64,000 nt of DNA from Neptunicoccus cionae (GTDB lineage Bacteria; Pseudomonadota; Alphaproteobacteria; Rhodobacterales; Rhodobacteraceae), in NCBI RefSeq assembly GCF_014643735.1, contig NZ_BMKA01000002.1:1-64000 (forward strand), in the 5' to 3' direction. Both the position numbers and the translations under genes were made by a program. The notes under the pieces were generated by a model, which was given only the letters and a program-made list of their open reading frames with translations, did no database searches and was not told the DNA's origin. Shown here piece by piece: positions 1,353 to 58,418 of this stretch; position 1 is the first letter of the stretch; every line of letters starts with the position of its first letter.

Positions 1353-1370
1353 TTGTTCTGTCCTCCGCTG

Positions 1371-2033: not shown

Positions 2034-2043
2034 ACGGCCATCC

Positions 2044-2313: not shown

Positions 2314-2317
2314 TGAA

Positions 2318-3754: not shown

Positions 3755-3771
3755 GTCAGAACACCCCGTAG

Positions 3772-3789: not shown

Positions 3790-3833
3790 ACCCTCCGTGA
3801 CAGAAGACAGCACACAAATCTCAAGAAAAACCC

Positions 3834-38954: not shown

Positions 38955-39028
38955 GGCGAGTTGGCGGAGTGGTGACGCAGCGGATTGCAAATCCGTGTAC
39001 ACCGGTTCGATTCCGGTACTCGCCTCCA
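38955..39028 (+). tRNA. tRNA-Cys (GCA)
   Basis: The 74-base gene folds as a standard cloverleaf. The acceptor stem is GGCGAGT with ACTCGCC, the anticodon stem CGGATT around anticodon GCA, and the T arm contains GGTTCGATTCC. The CCA end is encoded. Its 3' 47 bases are the left attachment site of the island; integration left the tRNA gene whole. Confidence 0.95.
38982..39028. repeat. Left attachment site (attL) within tRNA-Cys
   Basis: The 47 bases from the anticodon stem to the CCA end are identical to 58372-58418. The sequence diverges immediately on both sides of the repeat, as expected for an integrase crossover identity block. Confidence 0.9.
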
Positions 39029-39096: not shown

Positions 39097-40128
39097 TCAC
39101 GTTTCGGTCTTGCTTCGTTCCATTTGGTTTCTTGCCTCTTGAGCGCGCTTCGCGAGCTCTCTTTGCCGGATCGGCCCACCGTACTTTTTCAGCATCTCAA
39201 CGCCTGAGTGACCTGTGACAGCCTTGACCATCTCGTCATCACATCCTGCCAGATACAGCTCGATCGTCGCGTTTTTCCTTAGCCCGTGCGTTTTGTAGTA
39301 GCTCGCCTTCTCGTGCTTCATCTTCCTTTTGATGGTACGCATTTCCTCGGCAACGATACGGTAGCTCACTGGTCGACCCTTCGCGTTGATCACAACAGTG
39401 CCGTCTGTTCGCGCGATGCCTTCGAGATGGGTTTTCAGTCGGTTGGTAAGCGGGATCCACAACGGCTTGTCGGTTTTACCCTGCGTAAAATCGAAACCTT
39501 CATCGGAAAAGTGCTCCCACTTCATCTTCACGACATCGCCAATGCGTTGGCCTGTACCAACGCAAAGCTCGTAAACCAGCCGCGCCCTCTTTGAAGCCAG
39601 CGCTTCGAACTCGGCACGAACATCGTCTGGCCAAGGCTCCCAGCCGTCGCTCTGCTGCTTAAAGAGCGGGATGCCCTTCGCCGGGTTGCCATGCTCTTTC
39701 TTGATAAAGCCAATCAATCGCGCGTGGTTCATCAAGACGACCATGACCTGAACGAGATAGTTGGCTTGCCTCCAATGATCCGCATTGGCGCGGTGCAGTT
39801 CGTAAATGTGATGGGTTTCGATCCTGGCCGGGTCTTTCTCGGCCCAGATCTCACGAATGTGGCTGATGTACCGCCGATAGTCGGATCTCGTCCGGGGCTT
39901 CAGCTTCTTGTAGGCGTCACTCTCGTAATAGCTAAGAATCAGCGCTTCAAAATTGCGCCTCACCGGCGCAGGCGCTGGCTTTCCCTTCAGCAGTCGATTG
40001 TAGTGATCCCAAAATTCCGGCGTGCCCGCTTCCTCGTGCATCATGACGGAGATACCACGCGACCGCCGGATGAACCGAAGGTATCCTCTGTCATTGTAGA
40101 CGTATTTTGGCAGGCTCTTGCGGGTCAT
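39097..40128 (-). CDS. int: Tyrosine-type site-specific integrase
   Basis: The 343-residue protein has a core-binding SAM-like domain (about 55-145) and a catalytic domain with the full set of residues: Arg195 (GTGQRIGD), His281 and Arg284 (HGLRK), His307 (TGHS) and Tyr316 (KKYGG). The N-terminal arm domain is short. It would integrate and excise the island at tRNA-Cys. Its 3' end lies 68 bases from the tRNA. Its start overlaps the stop of a 63-codon gene, so the two are translated together. Confidence 0.92.
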   Translation of the reverse strand: MTRKSLPKYVYNDRGYLRFIRRSRGISVMMHEEAGTPEFWDHYNRLLKGKPAPAPVRRNFEALILSYYESDAYKKLKPRTRSDYRRYISHIREIWAEKDPARIETHHIYELHRANADHWRQANYLVQVMVVLMNHARLIGFIKKEHGNPAKGIPLFKQQSDGWEPWPDDVRAEFEALASKRARLVYELCVGTGQRIGDVVKMKWEHFSDEGFDFTQGKTDKPLWIPLTNRLKTHLEGIARTDGTVVINAKGRPVSYRIVAEEMRTIKRKMKHEKASYYKTHGLRKNATIELYLAGCDDEMVKAVTGHSGVEMLKKYGGPIRQRELAKRAQEARNQMERSKTET

Positions 40129-40568: not shown

Positions 40569-40619
40569 GTGGCACTTAGCCATTATTGCGTCGATCGAAT
40601 TTTATGGCACAGTGCCACC
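40569..40619. promoter_or_regulatory. Dyad operator between divergent Arc-type genes
   Basis: TGGCACAGTGCCA, just before the plus-strand ATG, is a perfect 6-1-6 palindrome. A distant half-site GTGGCACT lies about 40 bases to the left and is the exact complement of AGTGCCAC. The arrangement fits autoregulation of one or both ribbon-helix-helix genes. Confidence 0.6.
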
Positions 40620-40936: not shown

Positions 40937-41578
40937 TTAGTAGGCCACCCACTCATATCCGTGGTTACCTTCGTGATCTTCCCATTCCACGCCAACACCT
41001 CGTCGCCAATTTGATGACGAACAGCGCCGTGACGGCAGAACCCATTGCGGGGAAGCCGCTGGTGTCGTGCGTTGCCAGCCAAATTCGCCCTGCGTGCCGT
41101 AGGTTCCGAGGCGCATGTTGTAACTCTCAGAACAATCATCGTCGCGCCCGCCTTTGCGATGGCTGTAGTACCGAACATCCCAGACTCGGATCGAGCGCAC
41201 AAAATCGAATTCCAGACCACTGATGTCGATATCGGCACCGTCTTCGACCACCTGTGCCAGAATGATGTGGCCGAGCATTTGACCATTTTGGTTGCAGGCC
41301 TCCCAGACTTTAGGATCAATACTTTGCAACGGCGCGCGCTCAGAAACACCCATCGGGCAGCGCCAGATCTGCAACGGCGGCTCAATCGGCCAGAGCGTAA
41401 TCCTGCGGATAAACACGGCGCGGGCATGGGCACCGTCTGCTGACGCGGGCCACCCACCAGCCAGGCAAAGCAGAATGGCGCAGTCAACCTGATAGGCTTT
41501 TGCCGCTTGTGGAGCCACGGTTGAAAGCAAAGCCAAAGCAACTCCGGCAGTCCAATTCCTGATAAGTTTGCACCGCAT
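40937..41578 (-). CDS. Secreted protein with TrbM-like Cys motif
   Basis: The 213-residue protein has a signal peptide (hydrophobic core about 12-24, cleavage near AAKA at 25-28). The mature start VDCAILLCLAGGWPAS resembles the Cys-containing opening of TrbM-type conjugation proteins. Later it has APLQSIDPKVWEACNQNG and a helix followed by strands. The rest is unlike TrbM as far as I can tell. Such proteins occur in plasmids and integrative elements of this bacterial group. It is convergent with the Arc gene with 2 bases between. Function unknown; the TrbM link is weak. Confidence 0.65.
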   Translation of the reverse strand: MRCKLIRNWTAGVALALLSTVAPQAAKAYQVDCAILLCLAGGWPASADGAHARAVFIRRITLWPIEPPLQIWRCPMGVSERAPLQSIDPKVWEACNQNGQMLGHIILAQVVEDGADIDISGLEFDFVRSIRVWDVRYYSHRKGGRDDDCSESYNMRLGTYGTQGEFGWQRTTPAASPQWVLPSRRCSSSNWRRGVGVEWEDHEGNHGYEWVAY

Positions 41579-42152: not shown

Positions 42153-42451
42153 GGGCCGGAATGAGCCCATTCTGTGAGTTTGATTTTCTCGCTGCGCGTT
42201 CGCAGCACATATTTTGCCGCACGCATCATCTATAGTACGACAATGCAGCGAGAAGAGCTGCCATTCGCGCCAGGCGCAGCGAGACTTCTTCAGGCAAGAA
42301 ATGAGCGGTGGGACAAAGGGTGAATTCGCTGCGTTTGCATCAAGGTCTGCAATCTCGAGTAACCGGCCACACGTATGCAGCCGGTCATTCGATTTTACCG
42401 ATCCTTGAGGAAATTTTCAGCTCGGCTCCGCTTCACCGGGAGCTGGAATGT

Positions 42452-43630
42452 TCAGCCGGTCTCACCAAATCCTTTCGGTACTGGCAGATCAGGCAAGGTT
42501 GCCGCTCGTTTTTGCATGGCCCGCCCGATAACTACACGGCTGATTTCGGTTGTCCCGTCCACAATCCGCAGCATTTGTGCGAGGCGGGACAAACGGTCCA
42601 GACCATAAGGCTGCAGCAGCCCCATGCCACCCAACACTTGCGTACAGGTGTTCGCAGCCTTCACTGCGGCATCTGGCACAAACCGTTTGGCATGAGCGGC
42701 CATCAGAGGGCCTTCGGGCGTGCCAAGGGATTCTGCCGCCTTTCGATAAAGCAGCTTGGAGGCTTCAAGATCGGTTGCAACCTCACCCAGCATCCACTGG
42801 ATCCCGTCCAGATCGAGGTTCTTGCCACCAAACATCTTGCGGTTCTTGGAATAGGACAGCGCCGTATCTAATGCAGCTTGCATCAATCCACAGCATCCTG
42901 ACGCAATCGAAACGCGGGCAATATCGATCGCCATGAGTGAGCCTTGCAGGCCCTGGCCAATGGGCAGGATGATATTGTCTTCGCTCACCACGACTTTGTC
43001 CATGTACATCTCGGCCAGAGGCAGGAAGTTGTAGGACGGGGTGTCGTAGAGCGGACCAAAGCTGAGGCCCGGAGTGTCGGCCGGGATGGCAATCATCGCC
43101 ATATCCTTGTGGCCGGGTTCATTGCTGGTCTTGACCACCGTGAAATAGATATCAGCCTCGGTCGCCAAGCTGACCCATGCCTTCACACCGCTGATCGTCC
43201 AAGTGCCGTCATCATTGATCACAGCCCGCGAATACATGTTTGTTGCGTCCGACCCCGATTGCGGTTCGGTCAGTGCAAAGTTCGCCAGCTTGCGGCCAGA
43301 GGTCAGATCCCGTGCCCATTTTTCCTTGAAGGCATCTGTGCCATAACCGCAGCCCGCGAAGGTGCAGATGTTATGCATCGACAGGGCAAAGGCATAGGCA
43401 CCATCGCCCAGTCCCAGTTGTTCGTAGACCTGAATGCCCTCTGAAAGGGGCAAGCCTTGGCCGCCAAACTCTTCGGGGGCGTAGAGCCCCGTCAGGCCAG
43501 CGGCCCCGGCTTTGTCCGACGCATCACGGGGCCATGTCTTCGCGGCGTTCCAGGCGTCCACATTGGGCAGGATGACCTGCTCGGCGTGGTCGCGTGCGGC
43601 TTGGAGTATGGTGGCGAGTTTGTCTGACAT
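42452..43630 (-). CDS. Acyl-CoA dehydrogenase
   Basis: The start at 43630 follows AAAAGGA by 8 bases; the longer frame from 43672 is rejected. The 392-residue flavoprotein has the N-terminal helical domain, the FAD-binding [11 protein letters not shown] and the C-terminal QVLGGMGL block. It introduces a 2,3 double bond into an acyl-CoA. At the place of the usual catalytic Glu (YEGT in the medium-chain enzyme) the sequence is VDGTTEI with Asp358. It lies downstream of the AraC-type gene on the same strand. Its likely place is the first oxidation of the CoA-activated substrate of the island pathway. Confidence 0.88.
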
Positions 43631-43824
43631 TGGTCGGTCCTTTTGTGAGCGGCTCTTTTCACATGACGCCACACTTCAGCACCTGCTGAGCAGGCAGCGG
43701 GTCAAGCTTCTAGAGGAGAACCAGGTGAGAACGCCATCTATTGCGCAAGATCTAGCAGGAGAAAATTCTTCGCTCTATCTCGTGCGCTGACAGATCATTG
43801 TCCAAAAGTGACAAAACAGGCGCT

Positions 43825-44844
43825 TTACGTCTGCATCCTGCGATACGAACTGGGGGTGCTGCCGGTCCAGCGTTGAAAGGCCCGGTGAAAATTGGCAGCA
43901 GAGGAAAAGCCGACATCATGTGCGATGGCCTCGACGCTTTTGCGTCCCGCCTGCAGGTCGCGGATCGCGATGTCGCGCCGCAGGGCATCCTTGATCGCCT
44001 GAAACGAGTTCCCATCCGCTTGCAACCTGCGGATCAGGGTGCGCGGCGTCATGTGCATTGCGGATGCTGTCTGGGTCAGGGTCGCCGCGTCCCATCCCGT
44101 TTGGCCCAGATAAGTGCGCACCCGCAGCGATTGGGTGTGCTCGCGCGAAGAGGTGAAAATCCAGTCCCGGGGCGCGTTTTGCAAAAACCGGTCAAGATCA
44201 GATGTGCTACGCGCTTGCACAGGGCCCAGAGCGTTCGGGGAGAAGGAGATCGCAGTGGCGGGTTGGCCAAACTGAAAGGGTGCGGGAAAGATAATCGCGT
44301 AATCCTGATTAAAGTCCGGGCGATCAAACGCGAAATCAACGGCTTTAACCGGAACCTCATGCCCTGAAAGCCAAGACATGAGCCCGTGGGCAAGTTTGAG
44401 GATCAGCATGTGGCCAAACCGTTGTACAGGTGCATCTGTTTGCGGGTTCAGGCTCAGTGTGAGGGCGCTGTCAGTGTCATCCAGATCAAACTGATAGTCA
44501 TCCAGCAGCAAATTCCAGAAGGTCGAAAACCGGTAGAGTGCCGAAGAAAGAGACGTGGCTTCTCTGACAGTCGTCAGAAGATGTTGTAAGGCACGCGGTC
44601 GCACGGGTCTGCTCCAAAGCCCCATCATCACATCGCCGGTCTCGACAGCGGCAAGTTGATAGAGACAGACAATCTGATCCAGCGTGACGCGACCATTCGG
44701 CGCGCGCGTATCCGCGTTCAGACCGGACCGGCTAAGCAGCGACGCCATCTGCGCCTCTGGGCACAGGGCACGCAGCGCCGCCAGCCAGTCATCGACAAAC
44801 TGGCTGGAAACGGTGGAAAGGATCGTTGGCGTGACATTGGTCAT
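43825..44844 (-). CDS. AraC-family regulator (Arabinose_bd/OruR type)
   Basis: The 339-residue protein has an N-terminal sensing domain of the OruR/GbdR-like kind (residues about 20-200) and a C-terminal pair of helix-turn-helix motifs (DAATLTQTASAMHMTPRTLI and EAIAHDVGFSSAANFHRAFQ). The latter ends in RWTGSTPSSYRR, typical of AraC. It sits between the thiolase and acyl-CoA dehydrogenase genes, all on the minus strand, and probably controls one or both. The ligand is unknown. Confidence 0.87.
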   Translation of the reverse strand: MTNVTPTILSTVSSQFVDDWLAALRALCPEAQMASLLSRSGLNADTRAPNGRVTLDQIVCLYQLAAVETGDVMMGLWSRPVRPRALQHLLTTVREATSLSSALYRFSTFWNLLLDDYQFDLDDTDSALTLSLNPQTDAPVQRFGHMLILKLAHGLMSWLSGHEVPVKAVDFAFDRPDFNQDYAIIFPAPFQFGQPATAISFSPNALGPVQARSTSDLDRFLQNAPRDWIFTSSREHTQSLRVRTYLGQTGWDAATLTQTASAMHMTPRTLIRRLQADGNSFQAIKDALRRDIAIRDLQAGRKSVEAIAHDVGFSSAANFHRAFQRWTGSTPSSYRRMQT

Positions 44845-44973
44845 AACGCCTCAGGAGGTACCACCAATTCCGGTTTACATGAAACACAGCACATGCAGAT
44901 GGCGGCCTTCGCAGATGACAGAATGTCAATGTCTCAACCAGATAACGCTCTGCTTGAACTCATTTCAGTGTGG

Positions 44974-46158
44974 TCAGGCGACTTCGAACAGTGCTGCGGC
45001 GCCCATGCCTCCGCCGACACACATGGAGGTCACCACGTATTTCACGCCACGACGCCTCCCCTCAATCAGAGCATGCCCGACTTGTCTCGCACCTGTCATG
45101 CCGTAGGGGTGGCCAATCGATATCGCACCGCCGTTCACGTTGTAGATTTCGGGATCGATCCCAAGATGGTCACGGCAATACAGAACCTGGCAGGCAAAGG
45201 CTTCGTTAAGCTCCCAAAGGCCGATGTCTTCGATGCGAAGACCTGCATTCTTCAGCAGCTTTGGAATTGCAAAGATCGGGCCGACCCCCATCTCTTCCGG
45301 TGCGTTTCCTGCAACAGCCATGCCGCGATAAATACCCAGCGGTGTGAGACCCTGTTGCTCAGCCATTTTGCCTTCCATGAGCACACAAGCCGAGGCCCCG
45401 TCAGAAAGCTGGCTTGCGTTTCCGGCAGTGATCAGTCCTCCTTCGACAACCGGGTTCAATGCCCCGAGTGTTTCGGCCGTCGTACCCGGCCGGTTGCCCT
45501 CGTCTTTTGACAAGGTCACCTCTTCCACGGTTTCCTCTCCGGTTTCGCGGTTCTTGACCCGCTTAATCGCAGTGATCGGGACGATCTCATCTTCAAACGC
45601 ACCAGCCGCCTGAGCCCGGGCGGTCCGACCTTGCGAAAGTGCGGCGTATTCATCCTGGACGTCGCGGCTGATCCCATAGGTCCGCGCCACATTTTCCGCC
45701 GTCATCAGCATCGGCATGTAGGCATGCTCAGATTGGGCGATAACGTTTGGATCTTTCTCATCGCCCGCCCATTTCAGATAAGCATTCTGCAGGGCGGAAA
45801 TATTTTCCTGCCCGCCCGCCACGGCAACGTTCTGACCATCCACAATGACCTGCTTTGCAGCCGTCGCAATGGCCATCAACCCGGAGGAACATTGCCTGTC
45901 GATCGTCTGTCCTGCCACCGTATTGGGAAGGCCAGCCGCCAGCGCCGACAAACGGGCGACATTCATGCCTGCTGTCCCCGCTGTAAGGACCGATCCGATG
46001 ACGACATCTTCGATCGTACCGGGGTCCACGCCTGCACGTTCAACCGCGTGCTGAATGGCGTGCCCCATCATGGTAGGGGATTTGATGTTGTTCAGCGCAC
46101 CTTTGAAGGCAACCCCAATAGGAGTTCGTGCGGTTGAGACGATAACGGCTTCTCTCAT
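44974..46158 (-). CDS. Acetyl-CoA acyltransferase (thiolase)
   Basis: The 394-residue enzyme has all thiolase active-site elements: nucleophile Cys in DRQCSSG (near 88), His in GGAISIGHPYGMTGARQ, and the second Cys in SMCVGGGMGA. It cleaves 3-oxoacyl-CoA with CoA to acetyl-CoA and a shortened acyl-CoA. Its start overlaps the stop of the hydratase/dehydrogenase gene by four bases (ATGA), so both are produced together. It is the last gene of the four-gene run from the acyl-CoA synthetase. Confidence 0.93.
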   Translation of the reverse strand: MREAVIVSTARTPIGVAFKGALNNIKSPTMMGHAIQHAVERAGVDPGTIEDVVIGSVLTAGTAGMNVARLSALAAGLPNTVAGQTIDRQCSSGLMAIATAAKQVIVDGQNVAVAGGQENISALQNAYLKWAGDEKDPNVIAQSEHAYMPMLMTAENVARTYGISRDVQDEYAALSQGRTARAQAAGAFEDEIVPITAIKRVKNRETGEETVEEVTLSKDEGNRPGTTAETLGALNPVVEGGLITAGNASQLSDGASACVLMEGKMAEQQGLTPLGIYRGMAVAGNAPEEMGVGPIFAIPKLLKNAGLRIEDIGLWELNEAFACQVLYCRDHLGIDPEIYNVNGGAISIGHPYGMTGARQVGHALIEGRRRGVKYVVTSMCVGGGMGAAALFEVA

Positions 46159-48275
46159 GATGTTTCCTTTTTGGCATCAAAATACGCGGTAAGTGTCACG
46201 CCCGAGGTTGCGAGTTCTTCCAACAATGGCGCAGGCGTGAACCACATCTCGCCATAGGCACCAAGCGACTGCCGATAGTGGGTCATGCGTTCCAGAATCT
46301 GGCTCAATCCAATCTCATCGGCATAGTGCATCGGGCCGCCGCGCCAGTTTGGGAAGCCATAGCCATTGACCCAGATCAGGTCGCAATCACCCGGGCGCGT
46401 TGCAATTCCCTCTTCAAGGATCAAGAAGCCCTCGTTGATCAGGGGGAACAGACAACGCTCAAGGATTTCCTGATCGTCGATGTCCCTGCGCTTCACGCCA
46501 TGCAGGTCCGCCAGCTCGGAACTGATTTGAACCATCTCTGGGTCTTCGACCCGTGTCCGCCCCTCGTAGACATAGCTTCCTCGCCCGGTTTTCTGACCCA
46601 GTCGGCCTAGTTCAAACAACCTGTCCTGCACAGCTTGGTATGTCGGGTCATGCGCGATTTCACTACGCCGTTCCTGACGCACGCGGGCGCCCACATCGAC
46701 ACCGGCCAGATCCGCCATTGCGTGAATACCCATGGCCATGCCGAAGTTCTCAAGGACGTCATCCACCTGTTTCGGCGTCGCCCCCTCAAGAAGCAGACGA
46801 GACCCTTCGCGAAAGTATGGCTCCAGCATCCGGTTTCCAACAAAGCCGTAGCACACGCCAACCGTGACAGGGAGCTTTCGGATCTTCTTTGCGACCGTGA
46901 TTGCCGTTGCAATGACATCGGGAGCGGTCTTGGCGCCCCGCACCACCTCTAGCAAGCGCATGACGTTCGCCGGGCTAAAGAAATGGAGACCAATCACATC
47001 CTCCGGGCGTGACGTGACTGCGGCGATTTCATCAAGATCCAACGTCGATGTGTTTGAGGCCAGTATCGCGCCAGGTTTGGCGTGTAGGTCTAACGCTTCG
47101 AAAATCTGGCGTTTGACATTCATGCTTTCAAACGCCGCTTCAATGATCAGGTCGACCTTCGCAAGGTCTGCATAGCTGAGCGTCCCAGTGGCGTTGGCGG
47201 CGATTGCCTCTGCCCGATCGGCACTGAGCCGCCCTTTTTGAGCCGCACGCTGGAAATGCTCCCGGACCTTTTCCAGCCCCTGTTCGGGCGCGCCTTGCGT
47301 AGTTTCAAGAAGCGTGACCGGATATCCCGCCTGCAGAAAGGCGATGGCAATGCCGCGCCCCATTGTTCCCGCGCCGATCACGGCGACCGAAGCAATGTCA
47401 CGTGGTCGGTCCGCACGGGTAACACCGGGAACCTTGTTGCATTCACGCTCCGCAAAGAACAGGTGTCGGCCCGCGCGCGATTGAGGTGTACCGAGCAGTT
47501 CGGCGAAACCTGCCTTCTCTTGTGCCAGCCCCTCGGCCAGCGGCATTTCGCACGCGGCCTCGATGGACACCAAACATCGTTCAGGGGCGACAAGGTTTTT
47601 GGACGTGTGCGCTATCTGGTCTCGGAAACCCGTCAGATATCCCTTCGGATCAGGGTGTGTGACGGTCATATCCGCGCAACTGCGTTTCGGATCGCCCTTT
47701 TGGCTGACACGGGTGGCGAAACCCAAAACATGCGCGCGAAAATCCTGGTCGTTCTCAAATAGTGCGTCGACCAGCCCACAAGACAGGGCATATTCGCCTT
47801 TCACGGGATCACCTGAGAGGATCATTTGCGTTGCCGCTTCCAGACCGGCAATCCGGGGTAGTCGTTGGGTGCCACCGGCACCAGGCAGCAGCCCCAGTTT
47901 GATCTCAGGTAGGCCCATCACGGCATCCGGCGTGGCGACACGGTAATCACAGGCAAGCGCGATCTCCAGCGCACCACCCATAGCGGGACCTGCTATCGCG
48001 GCGATAATGGGTTTATTGCTGGTTTCAATCGTTACACACAGGTCTGGCAGGTCCGGCTTGTCCCAAACTGCCCCGGTACGGAACTCGACGATGTCAGCGC
48101 CGCTGCAAAAGAGCGGCAGAGCCGAGCATAGAACGATAGCTTTGACCTGTTCATCGGCGTCCAACTCGTGGATGGCCGAGGAAAGCGCCTGCCGCATCTT
48201 CAGGCCAAGAGCGTTAACTGGCGGGGCATTCAGCTCAATGAAAGCGACACCCTCGGTGTGTTTAATGGAAATCAT
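46155..48275 (-). CDS. Enoyl-CoA hydratase/3-hydroxyacyl-CoA dehydrogenase fusion (FadB-like)
   Basis: The start at 48275 gives a 706-residue protein that begins like its family (MISIKHTEGVAFIELNAPPV). The longer frame to 48353 would run into the cupin gene. The hydratase half has both catalytic Glu (MGGALEIAL and GLPEIKLGLLPGAGG) and the oxyanion-hole Gly. The NAD-binding half starts at SVAVIGAGTMGRGIAIAF and has HFFSP with the catalytic His. It hydrates the enoyl-CoA and oxidises the 3-hydroxy product. It begins 11 bases after the cupin gene and overlaps the thiolase start. Confidence 0.92.
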   Translation of the reverse strand: MISIKHTEGVAFIELNAPPVNALGLKMRQALSSAIHELDADEQVKAIVLCSALPLFCSGADIVEFRTGAVWDKPDLPDLCVTIETSNKPIIAAIAGPAMGGALEIALACDYRVATPDAVMGLPEIKLGLLPGAGGTQRLPRIAGLEAATQMILSGDPVKGEYALSCGLVDALFENDQDFRAHVLGFATRVSQKGDPKRSCADMTVTHPDPKGYLTGFRDQIAHTSKNLVAPERCLVSIEAACEMPLAEGLAQEKAGFAELLGTPQSRAGRHLFFAERECNKVPGVTRADRPRDIASVAVIGAGTMGRGIAIAFLQAGYPVTLLETTQGAPEQGLEKVREHFQRAAQKGRLSADRAEAIAANATGTLSYADLAKVDLIIEAAFESMNVKRQIFEALDLHAKPGAILASNTSTLDLDEIAAVTSRPEDVIGLHFFSPANVMRLLEVVRGAKTAPDVIATAITVAKKIRKLPVTVGVCYGFVGNRMLEPYFREGSRLLLEGATPKQVDDVLENFGMAMGIHAMADLAGVDVGARVRQERRSEIAHDPTYQAVQDRLFELGRLGQKTGRGSYVYEGRTRVEDPEMVQISSELADLHGVKRRDIDDQEILERCLFPLINEGFLILEEGIATRPGDCDLIWVNGYGFPNWRGGPMHYADEIGLSQILERMTHYRQSLGAYGEMWFTPAPLLEELATSGVTLTAYFDAKKETS

Positions 48276-48286
48276 GTTCGGAAACC

Positions 48287-48973
48287 TTAATTCGAAAGTT
48301 TGGCAAGATCCTGTTCGACTTCTGTCCAGTCGTCGAAATGGATCACGTTGCACGGTGAATTCACGTTCTCGAGCCAGACAAAGACCGAGATGAAAGGCTG
48401 GTTATAGACCCGGGTGGCGTGGGGCTCGCCCGCAGCGTTCCAGATAAGTGATCCAGCCGGATAATCCTGCCAGTCACGGGTGCCAAACCGCCAACCAGAT
48501 TTCTCGGACAGGTTCAGGTACAGCTCTGGCGCGTCGTGGTTGTGGTCCCGATACAACGTCCGTGGACTCAGCATGAAAATGCCAAGGCTGAAATCGGGAT
48601 GGTGGCGCCCACATGCGTCCGGCCCGATCAGCAGAGTATGTAGGTTACACTTTGTGTATCCCTCGCCTAATTCGGCTCCGGGGGGATAGAATTGGGCGTT
48701 GTCTTCGCGCCAGATCAGATCATCTTTGGCGGCTTTCAGACAACGTGCGATTTCCTGCAATTCGGGGGCTGCAATCCCGGCGATGGCGTTCTTCAGAACC
48801 TCATCGTGCCGGGTTCCTTGGGGAGGTAAATCAATGAGCCGCTCGTCGGACAGGTCCATGGCTGCCAGCTTGTCCAACGTCAGATCAACGCCGCGTGTGG
48901 CAGCTCTGCGCGCTTGCAGATAGGTGACAATGGAATGAATAAGCGCCTGAATACGGCGTTGCTTGTCTGTCAT
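48287..48973 (-). CDS. DddQ/DddL-like cupin (DMSP lyase family)
   Basis: The 228-residue protein has a C-terminal cupin that resembles DMSP lyases of the DddQ/DddL type. The first metal motif is HNHDAPELY (HxHxxxExY) and the second is GEPHATRV with the third His. Flanking blocks such as IFMLSPRTLYRDHNHDAPEL and DWQDYPAGSLIWNAAGEPH follow the same order as DddQ. DMSP lyases cleave dimethylsulfoniopropionate to dimethylsulfide and acrylate. The family contains members without proven DMSP activity, and the beta-oxidation context suggests a different or wider substrate. The gene overlaps the acyl-CoA synthetase stop by four bases. The lyase name is an inference. Confidence 0.75.
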   Translation of the reverse strand: MTDKQRRIQALIHSIVTYLQARRAATRGVDLTLDKLAAMDLSDERLIDLPPQGTRHDEVLKNAIAGIAAPELQEIARCLKAAKDDLIWREDNAQFYPPGAELGEGYTKCNLHTLLIGPDACGRHHPDFSLGIFMLSPRTLYRDHNHDAPELYLNLSEKSGWRFGTRDWQDYPAGSLIWNAAGEPHATRVYNQPFISVFVWLENVNSPCNVIHFDDWTEVEQDLAKLSN

Positions 48974-50595
48974 GATTTTAAGTCCGCGCGCGTTGAAATA
49001 TCTTTCCGCACGAGTTTCTTGTCGAGCTTACCGACGCTGGTCTTAGGTAGGCGGTCGACAAAGATTATCTCGTCTGGAACTGCCCATTTTGAGATCTCGC
49101 CTGCGTCAACCCGCGACTGGATTTCTTCCATGACTCTCAAGCGCACAATATCCGGATCGGCATCCTTTGCGGCTTGAGCGACCAACACTGGCCGCTCGCC
49201 CCACTTCACGTGCGGCAGCCCGATCGCGGCGACGTCCTCAACGCCGCTACAAGACGATGCTATGTTTTCCAGTGCCAGCGAGGAAATCCATTCGCCGCCG
49301 GTCTTGATCACATCCTTGAGGCGGTCAGTAATCTGCAACGACCCATTCTCGCGGATATACCCAACATCCCCGGTATGCAGATACCCACCGTCCCAAAGTT
49401 CATCCGAGGCTTGCGCATTATCCAGATAGCCTTGTGTCAACCAGGGAGCCCGAGCAACAACTTCACCGGTTGTTTCACCGTCATGCGGAACGTCTTTCAT
49501 ATCCGGTGTCACAACACGAAGGTCGACAAGCGGGCCGGGAAAGCCGGTTTGCGCCTGCACCTCTGGATCATCGCTGGACAAGTTTGCCACTGTCAGAAAT
49601 GGACAGGTTTCGGACATCCCATAGGCCGCATGCAAGGATATGCCTGCCGCCGCCGCCCGGTCCTGCAAATTGCGCGGCAAAGCGGCCCCGCCAATGATCA
49701 CTTTCCATCTGTCCTGGTCAATTTGTGGGCAGCCCGGATGGTCGAGCACCATTGACAGAACCGTGGGCACGCAGTGGGAAAAGGTGACGTTTTCGTCGGC
49801 AATCAATCGCAAGATTGTGTCAGGGTCATATCGACCGGGATAGACCTGACGCAGTCCCAGCATCGTTGCGGCATATGGAAATCCCCAGCCGTGGACGTGA
49901 AACAAGGGCGTAAGCGGCATGTAGACGTCGCCGCGATGAAATCCGGCATTCCCGGGCCACGCGCCGAAACCAGCGATCAGGCCCAACGTGTGAAGGACCA
50001 ACTGCCGATGTGAATAGCTCACCCCTTTGGGATTGCCTGTGGTCCCGGTCGTATAAAACAACGTTGCGGTTTGGTTTTCATCGAAGTCCGGGAAGTCAAA
50101 GCTGCCTGAGGCCTCGCCTATCCACTCTTCATATCCTTCACCGTCGCCAATCGGCACAATGATGATGTCCCGATCAAAGCCCGGCTTGATATCATCAATG
50201 AGTGGCATGAAATCGCGGTGCACGATGATCAGATCCGATTTGCCGTGGTTGATCGTATAAAGAACCTGGGCAGGAGATAGACGGACGTTGATCGTAAAAA
50301 GGGACGCGCCCATCATCGGGATCGCGAAAAAACACTCAAGATAACGGTGCGTATCCCAATCCATGACACCGACGCGCATGCCCTCATGTATCCCGCTGGC
50401 CTTTAGAGAATTGGCAAGTTGGCGCACGCGTTTGCCCAAGTCCGCGTAGCTCAGTCGCATTTCGGTGCCGCTGACGATCTCTTGGCTGGCTGACGCGAGC
50501 TGGGATCCGGCCAGCAAGTGTTTAATCAGCAAAGGATAGCCATATGCATTTGGCGAAGGTGAAAGTGGTGGCATTAAGGTGGAATCCCATAGCAT
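48970..50595 (-). CDS. AMP-forming acyl-CoA synthetase
   Basis: The 541-residue protein has the motifs of ANL-family ligases: TLFYTTGTTGNPKGVSYSH (ATP-binding P-loop), the AAYGMSETCPF core and DRLKDVIKTGGEWISS, then a C-terminal Lys in KTSVGKLDKK. It resembles medium-chain fatty-acyl and methylmercaptopropionate (DmdB-like) ligases. It would activate the imported acid as a CoA ester at the start of the island pathway. The start at 50595 is uncertain; an in-frame ATG at 50574 gives a more typical N-terminus. Its promoter region is shared with the divergent LysR gene. Confidence 0.88.
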   Translation of the reverse strand: MLWDSTLMPPLSPSPNAYGYPLLIKHLLAGSQLASASQEIVSGTEMRLSYADLGKRVRQLANSLKASGIHEGMRVGVMDWDTHRYLECFFAIPMMGASLFTINVRLSPAQVLYTINHGKSDLIIVHRDFMPLIDDIKPGFDRDIIIVPIGDGEGYEEWIGEASGSFDFPDFDENQTATLFYTTGTTGNPKGVSYSHRQLVLHTLGLIAGFGAWPGNAGFHRGDVYMPLTPLFHVHGWGFPYAATMLGLRQVYPGRYDPDTILRLIADENVTFSHCVPTVLSMVLDHPGCPQIDQDRWKVIIGGAALPRNLQDRAAAAGISLHAAYGMSETCPFLTVANLSSDDPEVQAQTGFPGPLVDLRVVTPDMKDVPHDGETTGEVVARAPWLTQGYLDNAQASDELWDGGYLHTGDVGYIRENGSLQITDRLKDVIKTGGEWISSLALENIASSCSGVEDVAAIGLPHVKWGERPVLVAQAAKDADPDIVRLRVMEEIQSRVDAGEISKWAVPDEIIFVDRLPKTSVGKLDKKLVRKDISTRADLKS

Positions 50596-50641
50596 CTTTA
50601 TCTGCTAATCTGGCATTTCTCACCCAGTCGAAGAATTGAAA

Positions 50642-50667
50642 GAAATTTCCTTTCATCAAGAAATTCT
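50642..50667. promoter_or_regulatory. Dyad-rich stretch between LysR gene and catabolic operon
   Basis: GAAATTTC at 50642-50649 is a perfect palindrome, GAAATTC recurs at 50661-50667, and GAAAG/CTTTC arms flank it. It lies between the divergent start codons (50595 and 50812), where LysR-type regulators usually bind. No clear T-N11-A was selected. Confidence 0.35.
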
Positions 50668-50811
50668 AACCGATCACATCGCGCCGCGAATTGCGTGCTA
50701 CCCCCGGACAGGTTATGAAAAAGAGTATCAATACCCTGCTATATTCGCGCCCGTCGTCGGATAATTCTTCTTGAGGGTAAGCAGAGTTGGTTTCATCAAG
50801 GAGATGCAGCA

Positions 50812-51735
50812 ATGACCACTCACATGCCCACGCTGGTTTCACTGCGCGCTTTTGAGGCAGTGGCGCGTCACAAGAGCTTCCGAAAGGCCGCTGACGAGAT
50901 TTGTGTGACGCACGCGGCAGTCAGCCACCAGGTCAAAGCATTGGAAACATCAATCGGCGTTAAACTACTGGAACGCACAAGCCGTTCGGTCGAACTGACA
51001 CCGGCCGGGGAGCAATATTACCCGCCGGTCCGCGAGCACATTCAGGGCATTATCAAAGCCACACGGCGCATCCAGACACCTGAGGAACCGGACGTGTTGC
51101 TCGTTCAGTCCTACGCAAGTTTCAATACAATGTGGCTTCAGCCCAGATTGGCAGACTTTCTTCAGGATAATCCGGACACACGCGTGCGCATCGTCTCTAC
51201 CTTTGAAGACGGTGATTATGACATGCACCGGTTCGATGTGGGCGTGTTCAATGCACCACCATTTGACAAACGGTTTGACTATAGCCCGTTGTTCGAAACC
51301 GATATCTACCCGGTATGTGCTCCGGAGGCCTTGAAAACCGCAAGCGGTGGAATGCCGCTGGAAGAGCTCAGAAATTTCCTGCTGTTGAGTGTCCCAAGCA
51401 CATGGAATGAGCCGGATGACTGGGACTGTTGGTTGGATGCGGCAGGCTTAGATCGCGAAACCATGAAATTTGGCTCAATCTTCGATAACTACCCTCTTGT
51501 CCGCGAAGCCGTTTTGAACAACCACGGAATGAGCATCTCAAGGGCACCGTTTTGCACGCGTGATCTTGAAAGGGGGCGTTTGGTCAGACCGTTCGACATT
51601 TCGGTGCCAGAGCCAGGTCGCTGGTATCTGGCGACGCAAAAAGAACGTGTACCCAACCCAAAGCTCGATACGTTTGTGGACTGGCTGTTCGAACAGATCG
51701 AGGCCGACCCAACCATGCGGTTCTTCCGGGCTTAA
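50812..51735 (+). CDS. LysR-family regulator (GcvA-like)
   Basis: The 307-residue protein has an N-terminal winged helix (MPTLVSLRAFEAVARHKSFR then KAADEICVTHAAVSHQVKAL) and a GcvA-subgroup effector domain. AAGGAG lies 9 bases before the ATG. It is divergent from the acyl-CoA synthetase operon and convergent with the ABC importer operon, so it is well placed to control the catabolic genes. The effector is unknown. Confidence 0.87.
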   Translation: MTTHMPTLVSLRAFEAVARHKSFRKAADEICVTHAAVSHQVKALETSIGVKLLERTSRSVELTPAGEQYYPPVREHIQGIIKATRRIQTPEEPDVLLVQSYASFNTMWLQPRLADFLQDNPDTRVRIVSTFEDGDYDMHRFDVGVFNAPPFDKRFDYSPLFETDIYPVCAPEALKTASGGMPLEELRNFLLLSVPSTWNEPDDWDCWLDAAGLDRETMKFGSIFDNYPLVREAVLNNHGMSISRAPFCTRDLERGRLVRPFDISVPEPGRWYLATQKERVPNPKLDTFVDWLFEQIEADPTMRFFRA

Positions 51736-51763
51736 TCTGTTGAATTCCAGCTCGGCCATCAGC

Positions 51764-51783
51764 GCGCGTCAGGACTGACGCGC
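51764..51783. terminator. Hairpin between the LysR gene and proV-like gene
   Basis: GCGCGTCAG and CTGACGCGC form a perfect 9-bp stem with a 2-base loop. It overlaps the proV-like stop codon at 51769 and lies 29 bases after the LysR stop. It lacks a T run. Confidence 0.5.
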
Positions 51784-52827
51784 ACCGGCCTTGGATGCGA
51801 CGCGAGGGACAAGAGCGCGAACCAGTTCGGTCATATCCAGTGTGCCGACCGTCTGCTCCCCATCTTTGACGATATAAGCGTGTGACGTATCCCCGCCGGA
51901 CCGAGCGATCATGCTTTCGAGCGTGTCGTTCACGTCCACTTCGCCATGGGCATCTGCGGGCACTTTGTCACCCCCAAGTGGGGTCATAACCGAGCGCACC
52001 CGCAGAACCCGTGCGCGGTTGATGTCGCTCACGAAGTCTTCGATGTAGGGATCACTCGGGTTCAGCAGGATGTGCTGCGGCTCGCCCTGTTGCACGACAA
52101 AGCCGTCCTTCAGGATCACAAGGTGATCGGCCAGCTTCAGCGCCTCATCAAGATCGTGAGTGATGAAAATGATGGTCTTGTGCAGCTCTTTTTGCAACTC
52201 GAGCAGCAGGTCCTGCATGTCGGTCCGGATCAGCGGGTCAAGGGCCGAGAACGCCTCGTCCATCAGCATGATCGGTGTGTTTGCACTCAGCGCCCGGGCA
52301 ATGCCCACCCGCTGCTGCATCCCACCAGACAACTGCGCTGGATAATGGTTCTCAAACCCGCTCAGACCGACGCGGTCCAGCCATTTCGCGGCTTCGCGGT
52401 CGCAGGTGGCCTCGTCTTCGCCACGCACCGACAAGGGCATGCCTGCATTCTTCAGCACGGTCTTGTGCGGCAATAACGCGAACTTCTGGAACACCATCGA
52501 CATCTTTTCCTGTCGAGCATGGCGCAACCCGTCCTCGGACAGTTGCATCACGTCCTCACCCTGCACGATGATCTCGCCCGCAGTGGGTTCGATCAACCGG
52601 TTCAGGTGGCGGATCAGAGTAGATTTCCCAGAGCCGGACAGGCCCATGACCACTGTGATTTCCCCCGCCTGCATATCGACGTTGATATTGTTGAGCCCCA
52701 ACACGTGCCCGTGCTGCGCCAGCAATTCTTCCTTGCCCATGCCTCCTTTGACATGCTGCAACACGTCCTTGTCGCGGGCGCCAAATATTTTATAGAGCCC
52801 GGACAGGCGGACCATTGGTTGTGTCAT
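51769..52827 (-). CDS. Betaine-type ABC importer ATPase (ProV/OpuAA-like)
   Basis: The 352-residue protein has an N-terminal extension characteristic of ProV (MVRLSGLYKIFGARDKDVLQ), Walker A GLSGSGKST, signature LSGGMQQRVGIARAL and Walker B ILMDEAFSALD. The tail (about 280-340) has a reduced CBS-like regulatory region. It energises import of quaternary ammonium or related sulfonium osmolytes such as glycine betaine, carnitine or DMSP. It is the last gene of the three-gene unit and starts 12 bases after the permease gene. Confidence 0.88.
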   Translation of the reverse strand: MTQPMVRLSGLYKIFGARDKDVLQHVKGGMGKEELLAQHGHVLGLNNINVDMQAGEITVVMGLSGSGKSTLIRHLNRLIEPTAGEIIVQGEDVMQLSEDGLRHARQEKMSMVFQKFALLPHKTVLKNAGMPLSVRGEDEATCDREAAKWLDRVGLSGFENHYPAQLSGGMQQRVGIARALSANTPIMLMDEAFSALDPLIRTDMQDLLLELQKELHKTIIFITHDLDEALKLADHLVILKDGFVVQQGEPQHILLNPSDPYIEDFVSDINRARVLRVRSVMTPLGGDKVPADAHGEVDVNDTLESMIARSGGDTSHAYIVKDGEQTVGTLDMTELVRALVPRVASKAGARQS

Positions 52828-52839
52828 TGAACCGGCTCC

Positions 52840-53868
52840 TTAATGTTTGACTTGGGTCTTATCGACCCGTGTGAGAGCTGCCTTGGACACGCGGTCAAGG
52901 ATCACGGCCAGCAGAACAATGCCGATGCCAGCGACGATGCCCACACCCAGTTCAAGGTTTCGGATACCGCGCAACACGTTCACGCCAAGGCCAGGGGCCG
53001 AAACAAGAGAGGCGATCACGACCATGGCAAGGCTCATCATGATGGTCTGGTTGATCCCGGCCATGATGTTCGGCAGCGCCAGCGGCAATTGTACTCGCAT
53101 CAGTTTCTGGCGGTCATTCATGCCAAAGGCATTGGCCGCTTCGATCACGTCCTGATCTACAAGGCGGATGCCCAGATCGGTCAGGCGGATCACCGGGACA
53201 ATCGCGTAAAGGATGATCGCGATCCCATAAAGTTTCGATTCCGTGACCGAGAACAAGAAGATTAGAGGGATCAGGTACACGAAGGTCGGCAGGGTCTGCA
53301 GCAGGTCGAGTAACGGAATCACGCTTTTTTGCAATCGGTCGGATTTCGACATGGCAATACCAATGGGCACACCGAACAGCACCGATATCGTCGTACATAC
53401 AAAGATGATCGACAGAGTCTGCATCGCCACATCGTAGTGGTCTACGACAGCCAGCAGCATAATCGAGACGGCGACAAAGATCGTCACAGGGCGCGAACGC
53501 GAGGCGTACCAGGAAATCGCCACCAGAAGCGGGACCATGATGAACCACGGCATCGCTTCAAACAGCCAAAGTGCGCCATCCAACATCCAGCTCAGTGGTT
53601 GTGTGATCGGGTCCAGAACAGTTTTCAGGACCGGTTTGGCTGCCAGAAACCCTTCTTCGATCCCGTTGGTTACATCGCGCGACTGCCATATGCGGTTGCA
53701 GCTTTCATGCAGATTATCAAACGAGGGAATTGGCATGAGCGGTCCAGAGGCCTCTTCTCCTCCTGCTTGCGCCGCAAGGTCCGCCAGCGAAAGAGGCGCT
53801 TTATCGTCTGACGTGCCACACCATTCGCTCAAACCCAATGCGCTGAATAACTTGTCATAGAAGGCCAT
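52840..53868 (-). CDS. Betaine-type ABC importer permease (ProW-like)
   Basis: The 342-residue protein has a hydrophilic N-terminus of about 85 residues, then several membrane helices and the ABC permease motif EAANAFGMNDRQKLMRVQLP (EAA loop) followed by LALPNIMAGINQTIMMSLAM. The length and N-terminal extension match ProW. No binding domain is fused. It works with the ATPase encoded downstream and the binding protein upstream. Confidence 0.88.
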   Translation of the reverse strand: MAFYDKLFSALGLSEWCGTSDDKAPLSLADLAAQAGGEEASGPLMPIPSFDNLHESCNRIWQSRDVTNGIEEGFLAAKPVLKTVLDPITQPLSWMLDGALWLFEAMPWFIMVPLLVAISWYASRSRPVTIFVAVSIMLLAVVDHYDVAMQTLSIIFVCTTISVLFGVPIGIAMSKSDRLQKSVIPLLDLLQTLPTFVYLIPLIFLFSVTESKLYGIAIILYAIVPVIRLTDLGIRLVDQDVIEAANAFGMNDRQKLMRVQLPLALPNIMAGINQTIMMSLAMVVIASLVSAPGLGVNVLRGIRNLELGVGIVAGIGIVLLAVILDRVSKAALTRVDKTQVKH

Positions 53869-53935
53869 TTATCCCACTTTCCGATCTACTTCAGTGCGTT
53901 AGGGGCATCGCTGAGGATGCCCCTGTCCGTGCAGT

Positions 53936-54907
53936 TTACTGCAGCAATGCGGAAAGTTTGTCGCGCGCAGCATCGTTAAGCCACGCCCCCCAAACATCCT
54001 TGTAGGTCGTCAGAAAGTGCACAGCACCTTCATCGTAGGAGGCATTGTTATCCTCGACCCATGCCAGCGTTTCGCCCATCTGTGCGTTGGTGAAGGACAG
54101 ATTTGTCATCAGCTCAGAGATTTCTGCGTTTTCAGCCATGAATTCCTTGGAAAGAACTGTAACCACTTCACTGCGAGGGAAGGCGCTCATTGCTGGCGTG
54201 TCGCATTCCGCTGTGATGTTGCAGGCGTGCTTTTCAGGGTCATGGGGGCCCATATCGACCAGGGTCATCGGGTATTTGCCCAGTACCGATGTCGGTGCCC
54301 AATAAAAGCCGAACCACGGCTCTTTGTTTTCGTAGGCGGCAGCGATCGAAGCCGCAAGGGTTTCGCCTGATCCATGCACGAAGTTTTCAATGCCTGCATC
54401 AATCAACCCGCCTGCCTTCATCAGGTTGGTGCTGACATTCAGACAAGTCCATCCCTCGGGGCAATTGTGAAAGCGATTTCCGACGAGTTCGGGATTGGCT
54501 GCGATGCCTTCAATTGTTGCCAGTTCCGGATGCTCCTCCACAAGGTAGTTCGGAACAAAGAACCCTGCGACACCGCCATCTGATAGAACTTCGGTCACAG
54601 GAATGATTGCACCTGAGTCAACCAGCCCTTGGTAAGCCGGCGCGCCGTTTGTCCAGATTTCAGTCAGAATATCAGGCTCTCCAGTCTCGGATACGGATGC
54701 CAGCGCGGGGTTGCTCGAGAGCGGAACCGTCGTCACTTCGCAACCATAGCCTTGCTCCATCAGGAACTTCGAGACTGCGGTCACAATTTGCGCTGACCCC
54801 CAATCGGCCTGCATCAGTGATACTTCACCGCAGTCGTCTGCCTGGGCCGCCGAGGCGGTGATTGCCGCAGCAAATAAGCACCCGAGTCCCGTTGAAATCT
54901 TGAACAT
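53936..54907 (-). CDS. Periplasmic betaine-type substrate-binding protein (ProX/OpuAC-like)
   Basis: AAGGAGG lies directly before the ATG at 54907, so the longer frame to 55009 is rejected. The 323-residue protein has a signal peptide ending near AAQA (residue 22) and a mature OpuAC-type domain: VSLMQADWGSAQIVTAVSKF, then ILTEIWTNGAPAYQ. The aromatic residues typical of betaine cages are likely among the Trp and Tyr residues (ADWGSA, TEIWTNG, PWFGFYWAP), but the ligand is not assigned. It contains several Cys, unusual for the family. It is the first gene of the importer unit. Confidence 0.87.
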   Translation of the reverse strand: MFKISTGLGCLFAAAITASAAQADDCGEVSLMQADWGSAQIVTAVSKFLMEQGYGCEVTTVPLSSNPALASVSETGEPDILTEIWTNGAPAYQGLVDSGAIIPVTEVLSDGGVAGFFVPNYLVEEHPELATIEGIAANPELVGNRFHNCPEGWTCLNVSTNLMKAGGLIDAGIENFVHGSGETLAASIAAAYENKEPWFGFYWAPTSVLGKYPMTLVDMGPHDPEKHACNITAECDTPAMSAFPRSEVVTVLSKEFMAENAEISELMTNLSFTNAQMGETLAWVEDNNASYDEGAVHFLTTYKDVWGAWLNDAARDKLSALLQ

Positions 54908-55102
54908 TTCTTTCCTCCTTGTTATCGGCGAAACAGGGACGGAGAAACGCTCCAAGCCAAAATTCGCCTTGTTTGTAGCGATAATTTGTACCGACAGGCC
55001 TATGAGCAAAAAACTGAAAAGAATTTTGAATCATGTACAATTGTTTACAGGTGGAGGGATGACTCCCAACTCAAAACAGCCAGAGCCGCCCTAGCGCTGA
55101 GG

Positions 55103-55300
55103 TCATTCGGTGACTGGGTCGTCATCGCGGCGCGGGAAGGCGACCATTTCGACGTCGGGGAACATGCTGTGTTTGACGTTGATTGAGGTGATGTTGCCGT
55201 TGTCGTCGGTGTTGACGAAGAGGACGCCGCAGCGATCCCAGAAGTTCTTGCCGTCTTTTTCGCCGGATTTGACGTTCAGTTTCAGAGTTTGTGTAGCCAT
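55103..55300 (-). CDS. Small conserved-type mobile-element protein
   Basis: The start at 55300 follows a GAGG site; the longer frame to 55477 is less likely. The 65-residue protein reads MATQTLKLNVKSGEKDGKNF then WDRCGVLFVNTDDNG and ends with acidic residues. Similar small proteins occur in mobile elements of this group, near replication or toxin-antitoxin genes; this is my recollection, not a search result. It might bind single-stranded DNA, but nothing here shows it. The 321 bases that follow contain no gene. Confidence 0.6.
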   Translation of the reverse strand: MATQTLKLNVKSGEKDGKNFWDRCGVLFVNTDDNGNITSINVKHSMFPDVEMVAFPRRDDDPVTE

Positions 55301-55622
55301 CTTTTTGATCCTCACTTTAAGTGTTTCGATGAACATGGCCAAAGTGGGCACCAAGGGACTGTCAGCGAGAAACTTGCCTCGCGAGGAATGCGCTGGCGCA
55401 GGGGAATTTTCTTGTTGAAGCGGGGTTTGTCCCGCGTCTGACACGGCTGCCCGCTTATGTGCAGCAATCAGAAACACGGCGTTGAGGATCTGAGTTTGGC
55501 CATCAATCTCTTGGCTTTTCCGCCAAAACTGGCCTGGAACGCTGAAATTCCTGTATTGGGCCAGCAGATTGCTCTCAGTTAATATGACCTACCGACCATA
55601 AAGCGGAAATATGATCTGCGGA
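55301..55622. other. Gene-free stretch beside hipA
   Basis: No convincing ORF or strong hairpin was seen in this stretch. The region presumably contains the promoter of the small gene at 55103-55300. Confidence 0.4.
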
Positions 55623-58371: not shown

Positions 58372-58418
58372 GGATTGCAAATCCGTGTACACCGGTTCGA
58401 TTCCGGTACTCGCCTCCA
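58372..58418. repeat. Right attachment site (attR)
   Basis: These 47 bases are identical to the 3' part of tRNA-Cys at 38982-39028 and end in the encoded CCA. There is no tRNA 5' half here, so this is the displaced copy made by integration. Confidence 0.9.

Follow-up and report, generated by a model that had tools for sequence, protein, structure and literature searches.

A mobile gene cassette of Neptunicoccus cionae that very likely joins an onium-compound importer, a DddQ-type cupin and coenzyme A-dependent chain cleavage

Results

We analysed a stretch of 64,000 nucleotides from Neptunicoccus cionae (contig NZ_BMKA01000002.1, positions 1 to 64,000; hereafter the window), in which an integrative element carries a cassette of ten genes at 42452-54907. 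It is very likely that this cassette is a mobile regulon joining an importer of onium compounds, a lyase of the DddQ type and coenzyme A (CoA)-dependent chain cleavage, whatever the substrate. That the substrate is a five-carbon (C5) omega-onium acid, with the cupin acting last, has in our judgement somewhat less than an even chance, and gonyol in particular is a tentative candidate. An earlier note on this DNA had described a mobile cluster with a betaine-type importer, a DddQ-like cupin and genes for CoA activation, oxidation and thiolysis, several of them overlapping or nearly touching, in an arrangement that it regarded as not standard. This description stood in all these parts, and the conserved co-occurrence in other genomes that it proposed to look for was found. 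Its complete beta-oxidation set did not hold as a unit, and the four-carbon (C4) betaines among its candidate substrates would leave the cupin without a task.

All ten genes were present at full length. The enzyme operon lies on the minus strand and comprises an AMP-binding acyl-CoA ligase (48970..50595; PF00501, 1e-67; subfamily NF004837, 549.9 bits against a cut-off of 476), a DddQ-type cupin (48287..48973; PF16867 DMSP_lyase, 1.4e-22), a FadB/FadJ-type fusion of enoyl-CoA hydratase and 3-hydroxyacyl-CoA dehydrogenase (46155..48275; PF00378, PF02737, PF00725) and a thiolase (acetyl-CoA C-acyltransferase, 44974..46158; PF00108/PF02803; TIGR01930, 406.9 bits against a cut-off of 240.55). Some start codons, including the ATG of the fusion gene at 48275, were picked by us within the longest open reading frame (ORF). 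The ligase and cupin genes overlap by 4 bp, the cupin and fusion genes are 11 bp apart, and the fusion and thiolase genes overlap by 4 bp, so the four genes are very probably on one transcript. The thiolase had the standard motifs with Cys90, His350 and Cys380, and both hydratase Glu motifs were present in the fusion protein, all of which we take to be catalytic; the three enzymes thus showed the expected features, the ligase being judged by its profile alone. A LysR-type regulator gene (50812..51735, plus strand; PF00126/PF03466) is divergent from the operon. The importer genes, again on the minus strand, encode a ProV-type ATP-binding cassette (ABC) ATPase (51769..52827; PF00005; TIGR01186, 331.0 bits against a cut-off of 326.6), a ProW-type permease (52840..53868; PF00528) and an OpuAC binding protein (53936..54907; PF04069). 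The remaining two genes, also on the minus strand, encode an acyl-CoA dehydrogenase (42452..43630; PF00441/PF02770/PF02771) and an AraC-family regulator with an Arabinose_bd domain (43825..44844; PF12625, PF12833).

The cupin scored 80.6 bits against PF16867 (cut-off 27). The catalytic residues reported for DddQ, a lyase of dimethylsulfoniopropionate (DMSP), are Tyr120, His123, His125, Glu129, Tyr131 and His163 (PMC4437653; this and the other papers are cited from the parts of their text that were available). When the cupin was aligned to DddQ (5cu1), these mapped to Y141, H144, H146, E150, Y152 and H185, which were invariant in the window and five plasmid relatives (6 sequences). They were likewise invariant in 47 rows chosen by us (the window, 30 of the 42 family genome loci and 16 of the 38 more distant loci), partly by construction, as the scan patterns cover all of them but H185. 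The AlphaFold model of the cupin had a mean predicted local distance difference test score of 94.9. In a Foldseek search with this model, the six best PDB matches were all DMSP-lyase entries (E 1.8e-13 to 2.1e-12; TM-score by query 0.65-0.69; DddQ in five of the six titles, the sixth being a DMSP-lyase entry), and the next match was at 4.2e-8, although the identity to the six structures was only 15-19%. Profile, metal ligands with the tyrosines, and fold thus all place the protein in PF16867, and from the DddQ fold and catalytic residues it would be expected to catalyse a metal-dependent beta-elimination on a 3-onium acid. Further, 13 of the 17 isolate genomes with the cassette carried at least one further PF16867 protein, whereas none of 14 control genomes carried any, indicating that in most carriers the cassette brings in a cupin on top of one already resident.

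To define the conserved part of the cassette, genome contigs were scanned with a sequence alignment, by which 139 relatives were confirmed and the best 80 kept. The cupin family was set at 45 loci besides the window, comprising 42 genome loci (L007-L048, 45-96% identity) and 3 plasmids; these are not all independent, as L023/L039 and L046/L047 each come from one genome bin. Neighbouring genes were simple longest-ORF calls, some with over-long starts, and 35 of the 45 loci were untruncated, with at least 3 kb upstream and at least 3.5 kb downstream of the cupin. Among these 35, the ligase was directly upstream of the cupin in 29, the fusion was present in 26, the thiolase in 27, the divergent LysR in 27, an orthologous binding protein in 19 and the acyl-CoA dehydrogenase in 11. 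Ligase, fusion, thiolase and LysR were all present in 25, which we refer to as full-core loci. In 198 genomes of one family, drawn around one carrier genome (one of the three found) and with the 7 best first-look candidates scored per genome, the cupin and the ligase orthologue occurred in the same 3 genomes and were adjacent in each. By these counts the gene association is not chance. An SBP_bac_5 binding protein took the place of the importer in L021 (by profile), L022 and L040 (both by similarity); in Leisingera, a different protein with an ABC substrate-binding annotation did so.

The acyl-CoA dehydrogenase is not part of this core. It was present in 11 of the 25 full-core loci and lacking over at least 6.5 kb downstream in 10, and 4 loci ended too soon; among the 21 that extend far enough to judge, 10 therefore lack it. 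The AraC-type regulator and the dehydrogenase travelled together (11 loci each), and the pair is an optional add-on. A matrix scan of the window found no operator-like element (described below) near the dehydrogenase gene. We therefore dropped the dehydrogenase as a core step, and with it the complete beta-oxidation unit that the earlier note had claimed. The IVDGT motif of the protein has Asp at the position where Glu is presumably the usual catalytic base, the same in all 11 loci with the gene; in L011 the gene is split into two ORFs. The best NCBIfam match, acryloyl-CoA reductase, was rejected at 227.2 bits against a cut-off of 640, and no function was assigned.

The intergenic regions between LysR and ligase shared a conserved 44-bp operator-like element, located in the window at 50629..50672 (minus strand) before the ligase-cupin operon. 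A matrix built from close sites scored 28.6, 36.0, 29.5 and 31.7 in the distant loci L033, L034, L036 and L040, compared to a maximum of 15.0 in 20 mononucleotide-shuffled sequences of 20.9 kb, which were made from repeated L034 sequence and not from the 64-kb window. The second-best site in the whole window (17.4) was at 55007..55050 (minus strand), before the binding-protein gene. The element was found in 29 of 30 importer upstream regions with scores of 4.4 to 30.5, the replaced importer types included, and the single miss (L029) is likely due to an over-long longest-ORF start. The background of 391 random windows had a median of -22.7, a 95th percentile of -10.4 and a 99th percentile of 14.2, after 9 of 400 random windows scoring at least 25 had been dropped as true sites; the six highest values kept (9.2 to 21.0) equal real importer-site scores and were left in. 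With the same element before both, the importer and the enzyme operon look like one regulon, with the dehydrogenase/AraC pair outside it. We infer that the LysR-type regulator binds this element, and the cassette would very probably be under its control. No element was found near the solo cupins of L023, L024, L026, L031, L032, L035, L039, L042, L043, L044 and L048 (best score at most 13.3). In L041 the importer site scored 13.7, below the shuffled maximum, and no site was found before the cupin. L037 and L038 gave matches of 21.1 and 18.7 at corresponding positions of a gene that both share, some 3.7 kb downstream of the cupin, and these were taken as coincidence.

The importer resembles the DMSP importer DmpXWV in its composition, with an OpuAC binding protein, an ATPase and a permease. 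The best solved relative of the binding protein was 7yle_A (8.5e-116, 389.8 bits), which we identify as RnDmpX with bound DMSP, given that 7YLE is named in PMC10030565 and the residue numbers agree. The DMSP pocket reported there consists of W35, T64, W84, E113, W152, A153, Y200 and W202, with Tyr200 contacting the sulfonium sulfur (PMC10030565). The four Trp residues of the onium cage (W36, W85, W153 and W203 in the window) were kept in all 23 binding proteins compared (the window and 22 relatives), and the Glu113 equivalent in 22 of them, the window copy having Ala. The other pocket positions differed: the Tyr200 equivalent was Phe in 22 of 23 (the window and 21 of the 22 relatives), Trp115/Trp116 were replaced by Phe/Phe or Phe/Tyr in 22 of 23, Thr64 was mostly Ser, and Ala153 was mostly Thr or Val. 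The exception was L026 (32% identical), which kept the Tyr, Trp115/Trp116 and the other DmpX pocket residues except Ala153 (Gly). With its DMSP pocket incomplete, the importer is related to DmpX but was not classed as DmpX; its binding protein probably binds an onium compound, with the sulfur contact for DMSP lost. The idea that the Glu113-to-Ala change marks a longer substrate was dropped, as it is confined to the window copy.

The cassette lies within a 19.4-kb integrative element inserted at a tRNA-Cys gene (38955-39028). The last 47 bp of this gene (attL, 38982..39028, plus strand) form a perfect direct repeat with a copy at the other island end (attR, 58372..58418, plus strand), and a phage-type tyrosine integrase gene (39097..40128, minus strand; PF00589, 1e-16) lies inside, beside the tRNA gene, as in other tRNA-borne integrative elements. 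Four proteins tested outside the attachment sites (CobB/CobQ-like, URO-D, porphobilinogen deaminase and an epimerase-type protein) look chromosomal in character. When the island was compared by blastn with the 45 loci, the part common to other genera spanned 42311..55062, or about 44900-55062 in relatives without the dehydrogenase/AraC pair. Ten loci matched nearly all of 42311-55062 in one block at 93-94% identity, and L009 matched in two blocks (86% and 94%). Carriers at 93-94% DNA identity belong to several genera of Roseobacteraceae, namely Ruegeria, Shimia, Boseongicola, Pseudaestuariivita, Aliiroseovarius and Phaeobacter; only the operon-LysR part was common to Roseovarius (91%) and Leisingera (81-84%), and more distant loci showed 68-83%. 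Searched by tblastn against plasmids, the cupin matched 50 records, one at 93.0% (a plasmid of Phaeobacter inhibens P72, typed as conjugative), two at 79.7% (Leisingera plasmids) and 47 below 60%. Each family of non-cassette neighbours occurred in at most 6 of the 45 loci. Considering the sharp edges of the shared DNA block and the lack of recurring outside neighbours, we read the gene set as a horizontally mobile catabolic cassette that appears to have used more than one vehicle. A scan of viral contigs gave 22 pattern matches, none of which coded for a cupin relative.

The island contains further genes besides the cassette. A HipA-like gene (55623-56915; PF07804, PF13657) lies between the cassette and attR. 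Three ORFs at 40937-41578, 55103-55477 and 57258-58121 (213, 124 and 287 amino acids) had no Pfam match at 0.001, and the first of these adjoins an Arc-type regulator gene (40569-40934).

Relatives of the cupin also occurred in other gene contexts. In L023, L024, L026, L031, L032 and L039, which are single-cell or metagenome sequences of pelagic Rhodobacteraceae, the cupin was 76-84% identical and the other operon genes did not adjoin it; in L026 a ProXWV set lay within about 5 kb. In L048 (7763-14496), a 45%-identical cupin was found with genes for a membrane FA_hydroxylase, an enolase-superfamily protein and three proteins with GATase, GXGXG and Glu_synthase domains. This trio resembles, as far as we can judge, N-methylglutamate synthase, hinting at methylamine release in that context. 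More distant PF16867 relatives were found in L004 and L055-L086; many belong to Rhodobacterales and have an ABC ATPase gene some 3 kb upstream. In Fuscovulum, the annotated neighbours of a distant cupin were a polyamine ABC transporter, ring-hydroxylating dioxygenase subunits, an aminomethyltransferase-family protein and an amidohydrolase. In 2018, Lei and co-workers reportedly described a family of lyase-like cupins, some of whose members have no known function.

Discussion

The core gene set places limits on the substrate, which appears to be a zwitterion akin to DMSP and, like it, protective against salt. Without an acyl-CoA dehydrogenase in the core, the substrate should already have a 3-hydroxyl group or a double bond. 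Of the marine onium acids known to us, two fit a ligase, a 3-hydroxyacyl-CoA dehydrogenase and a thiolase, namely carnitine and gonyol (5-dimethylsulfonio-3-hydroxypentanoate), and the latter has the required 3-hydroxyl group. Thiolysis of the C4 compounds gamma-butyrobetaine and carnitine gives a glycine-betaine unit, which has no beta-carbon for elimination, whereas thiolysis of the gonyol derivative would leave DMSP-CoA, a natural target for a lyase of the DMSP type; C5 was therefore preferred over C4. In the route proposed here, the DmpX-like importer would bring in a C5 omega-onium acid, most likely gonyol, or, where the dehydrogenase is present, a relative such as 5-aminovalerate betaine, since saturated C5 acids could then enter too. 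The ligase would form the CoA ester, the fusion protein would oxidise the 3-hydroxyl to a ketone, and the thiolase would release acetyl-CoA and leave a three-carbon (C3) unit of the DMSP type (DMSP-CoA). The cupin would then eliminate dimethyl sulfide (DMS), or trimethylamine, from this unit, either as the CoA ester or after removal of CoA, and the acryloyl-CoA or acrylate produced would pass to the hydratase domain and an AcuI-type reductase of the host. The AcuI-type family TIGR02823 was over its cut-off in 17 of the 17 isolate genomes with the cassette, versus 2 of the 14 controls.

This route would be gonyol synthesis in reverse, running through gonyl-CoA and 3-oxo-gonyl-CoA to acetyl-CoA and DMSP-CoA. 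Gonyol is built from DMSP and acetate (PMC7496086), and DMSP-CoA is converted by DddX into acryloyl-CoA and DMS (PMC8163506). A survey detected gonyol in every haptophyte and dinoflagellate examined, and marine bacteria consume it (PMC7221440); it also occurs in a marine bacterium (PMC9695272). According to the available part of a paper of late 2025, its catabolism is not known (PMC12911362), and titles and text excerpts of the gonyol literature named no catabolic genes. 5-Aminovalerate betaine is mentioned in papers that also mention algae, as far as their accessible parts show. Among titles and abstract openings on 5-aminovalerate betaine degradation, beta-alanine betaine lyase, carnitine or butyrobetaine with a ligase and thiolase, and DMSP lyase with a thiolase, none described such a cluster.

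Several observations weigh against a C5 acid with the cupin acting last. In one clade with 100/99 support, 11 of 30 rows had the cupin but no ligase, some of these loci being short contigs (the tree held 40 of the 47 rows, 7 below 180 amino acids having been dropped, with 14 open forks and a long-branch warning). We searched 16 genomes (12 in which the cupin stands alone, L037 and L038 with ligase and cupin, L036 and L040), many of which are incomplete and derive from single cells or metagenomes. Four of them (L036, L037, L038 and L040) contained a ligase orthologue at about 70% identity and one (L036) a full fusion (73%), L040 having a hydratase-only version; L037 and L038 kept ligase and cupin beside only distantly related beta-oxidation genes. 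In L034 the 44-bp element stood directly before the cupin, with no ligase between. L041 (a Granulosicoccaceae genome bin, 1-4585) encoded a DddP-like M24 protein, a binding protein, LysR and the cupin, with no ligase. The best PDB matches of this M24 protein were 4b28 and 4rzy (3e-96), which we take to be DddP structures, and the title of 4b29 supports this. The solo cupins together with L034 and L041 suggest that the cupin may act directly on an imported acid. The Tyr200-to-Phe change in the importer could be neutral or could speak against a sulfonium and possibly for an ammonium substrate. DddQ and DddW have been described with free DMSP as their substrate, which makes cleavage of a CoA ester a further assumption, and the literature excerpts consulted reported no cupin lyase acting on a CoA ester. 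The gonyol-consuming strains R. pomeroyi DSS-3, Sulfitobacter EE-36, A. faecalis and Halomonas (PMC7221440) were not named among the best 80 of the 139 cupin loci and so probably use another route, and no release of DMS from gonyol is reported in the available part of the same paper (PMC7221440).

Some of these observations lend themselves to an order of steps in which the cupin acts first: an imported beta-onium acid of at least four carbons would lose its amine or sulfide to give a free enoate, which the ligase would activate and the fusion and thiolase would take through ordinary beta-oxidation. With the double bond made by the cupin, an acyl-CoA dehydrogenase would be superfluous. A free carboxylate would suit the DddQ-type residues, and both the ligase-free rows of the cupin clade and the binding protein and LysR of L034 and L041, standing with the cupin in the absence of a ligase, fit such an order. 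However, we know of no abundant natural beta-onium acid of at least four carbons, and the common ones (DMSP, beta-alanine betaine) yield acrylate, a C3 product that leaves the thiolase without a role; we consider this order unlikely. The same cupin fold and residues, the DmpX-like binding protein, the ubiquity of the AcuI-type reductase among carriers and the DddP-like protein immediately preceding the binding protein, LysR and cupin of L041 are also compatible with a plain cassette for DMSP, or its relative dimethylsulfoxonium propionate, in which the cupin would make acrylate, the ligase acryloyl-CoA and the hydratase 3-hydroxypropionyl-CoA, with the other steps as side functions. A divergent LysR has likewise been described for dddW (PMC4437653). 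Such a cassette would leave the co-transcribed dehydrogenase and thiolase unexplained, would often duplicate a resident PF16867 cupin, and does not sit well with the loss of Tyr200 in the importer. Thiolysis of a C3 3-oxoacyl-CoA would give formyl-CoA, and we know of no such route; on balance a plain DMSP cassette seems distinctly unlikely.

Catabolism of carnitine or gamma-butyrobetaine, which the earlier note had listed among its candidates, would run through CoA activation, oxidation and thiolysis to acetyl-CoA and betainyl-CoA, with the cupin as an accessory. Carnitine is also a 3-hydroxy onium acid, so that ligase, dehydrogenase and thiolase would suffice without an acyl-CoA dehydrogenase, the four-Trp cage is of the onium type, and the Tyr200-to-Phe change fits an ammonium group. 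But the cupin, the most widely kept enzyme, would then be without a task, and to our knowledge no DMSP-lyase cupin takes part in carnitine or gamma-butyrobetaine routes; we regard these substrates as improbable, and a C5 omega-onium acid, or a cupin acting first, explains the cupin better. R. pomeroyi DmpX, moreover, showed little binding of carnitine (PMC10030565). It is most improbable that the pathway does not concern onium compounds at all, the importer being a passenger and the cupin acting on an uncharged acid as a lyase or isomerase: although importers have been swapped in several loci and related cupins stand in quite different gene contexts, the importer types carry the same operator-like element, and the OpuAC type retains the whole onium cage.

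Compared with known systems, the cassette combines familiar parts in a different way. Its cupin shares with DddQ and DddW the fold across nearly the whole chain and the six catalytic residues, and with the dddW locus the divergent LysR, but it is distant in sequence, is fixed in an operon with a CoA ligase, the fusion and a thiolase, and usually accompanies another PF16867 cupin. The binding protein is nearest to RnDmpX and shares its cage and the Glu113 equivalent, but differs at Tyr200, Trp115/Trp116, Thr64 and Ala153. Bacterial degradation of carnitine and gamma-butyrobetaine likewise uses an onium importer, CoA activation, hydroxyacyl oxidation and thiolysis. DddD and DddX tie CoA activation to onium elimination (PMC8163506), as proposed for the cassette, but do both in one protein, whereas the cassette would use a separate AMP-forming ligase, a metal-dependent cupin and chain-shortening enzymes.

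DMSP is the source of the climate-active gas DMS. If a C5 omega-onium acid is the substrate, and gonyol in particular, the cassette would give bacterial gonyol catabolism its first genetic candidate and would connect DMS with a second pool of algal sulfonium compounds. Whatever the substrate, it offers a genetic handle on a subfamily of DMSP-lyase-like cupins for which we found no described role, and shows a trait moving between marine genera. Since the mobile regulon is defined and candidates for its substrate, importer, lyase and regulator are at hand, its role is directly testable.

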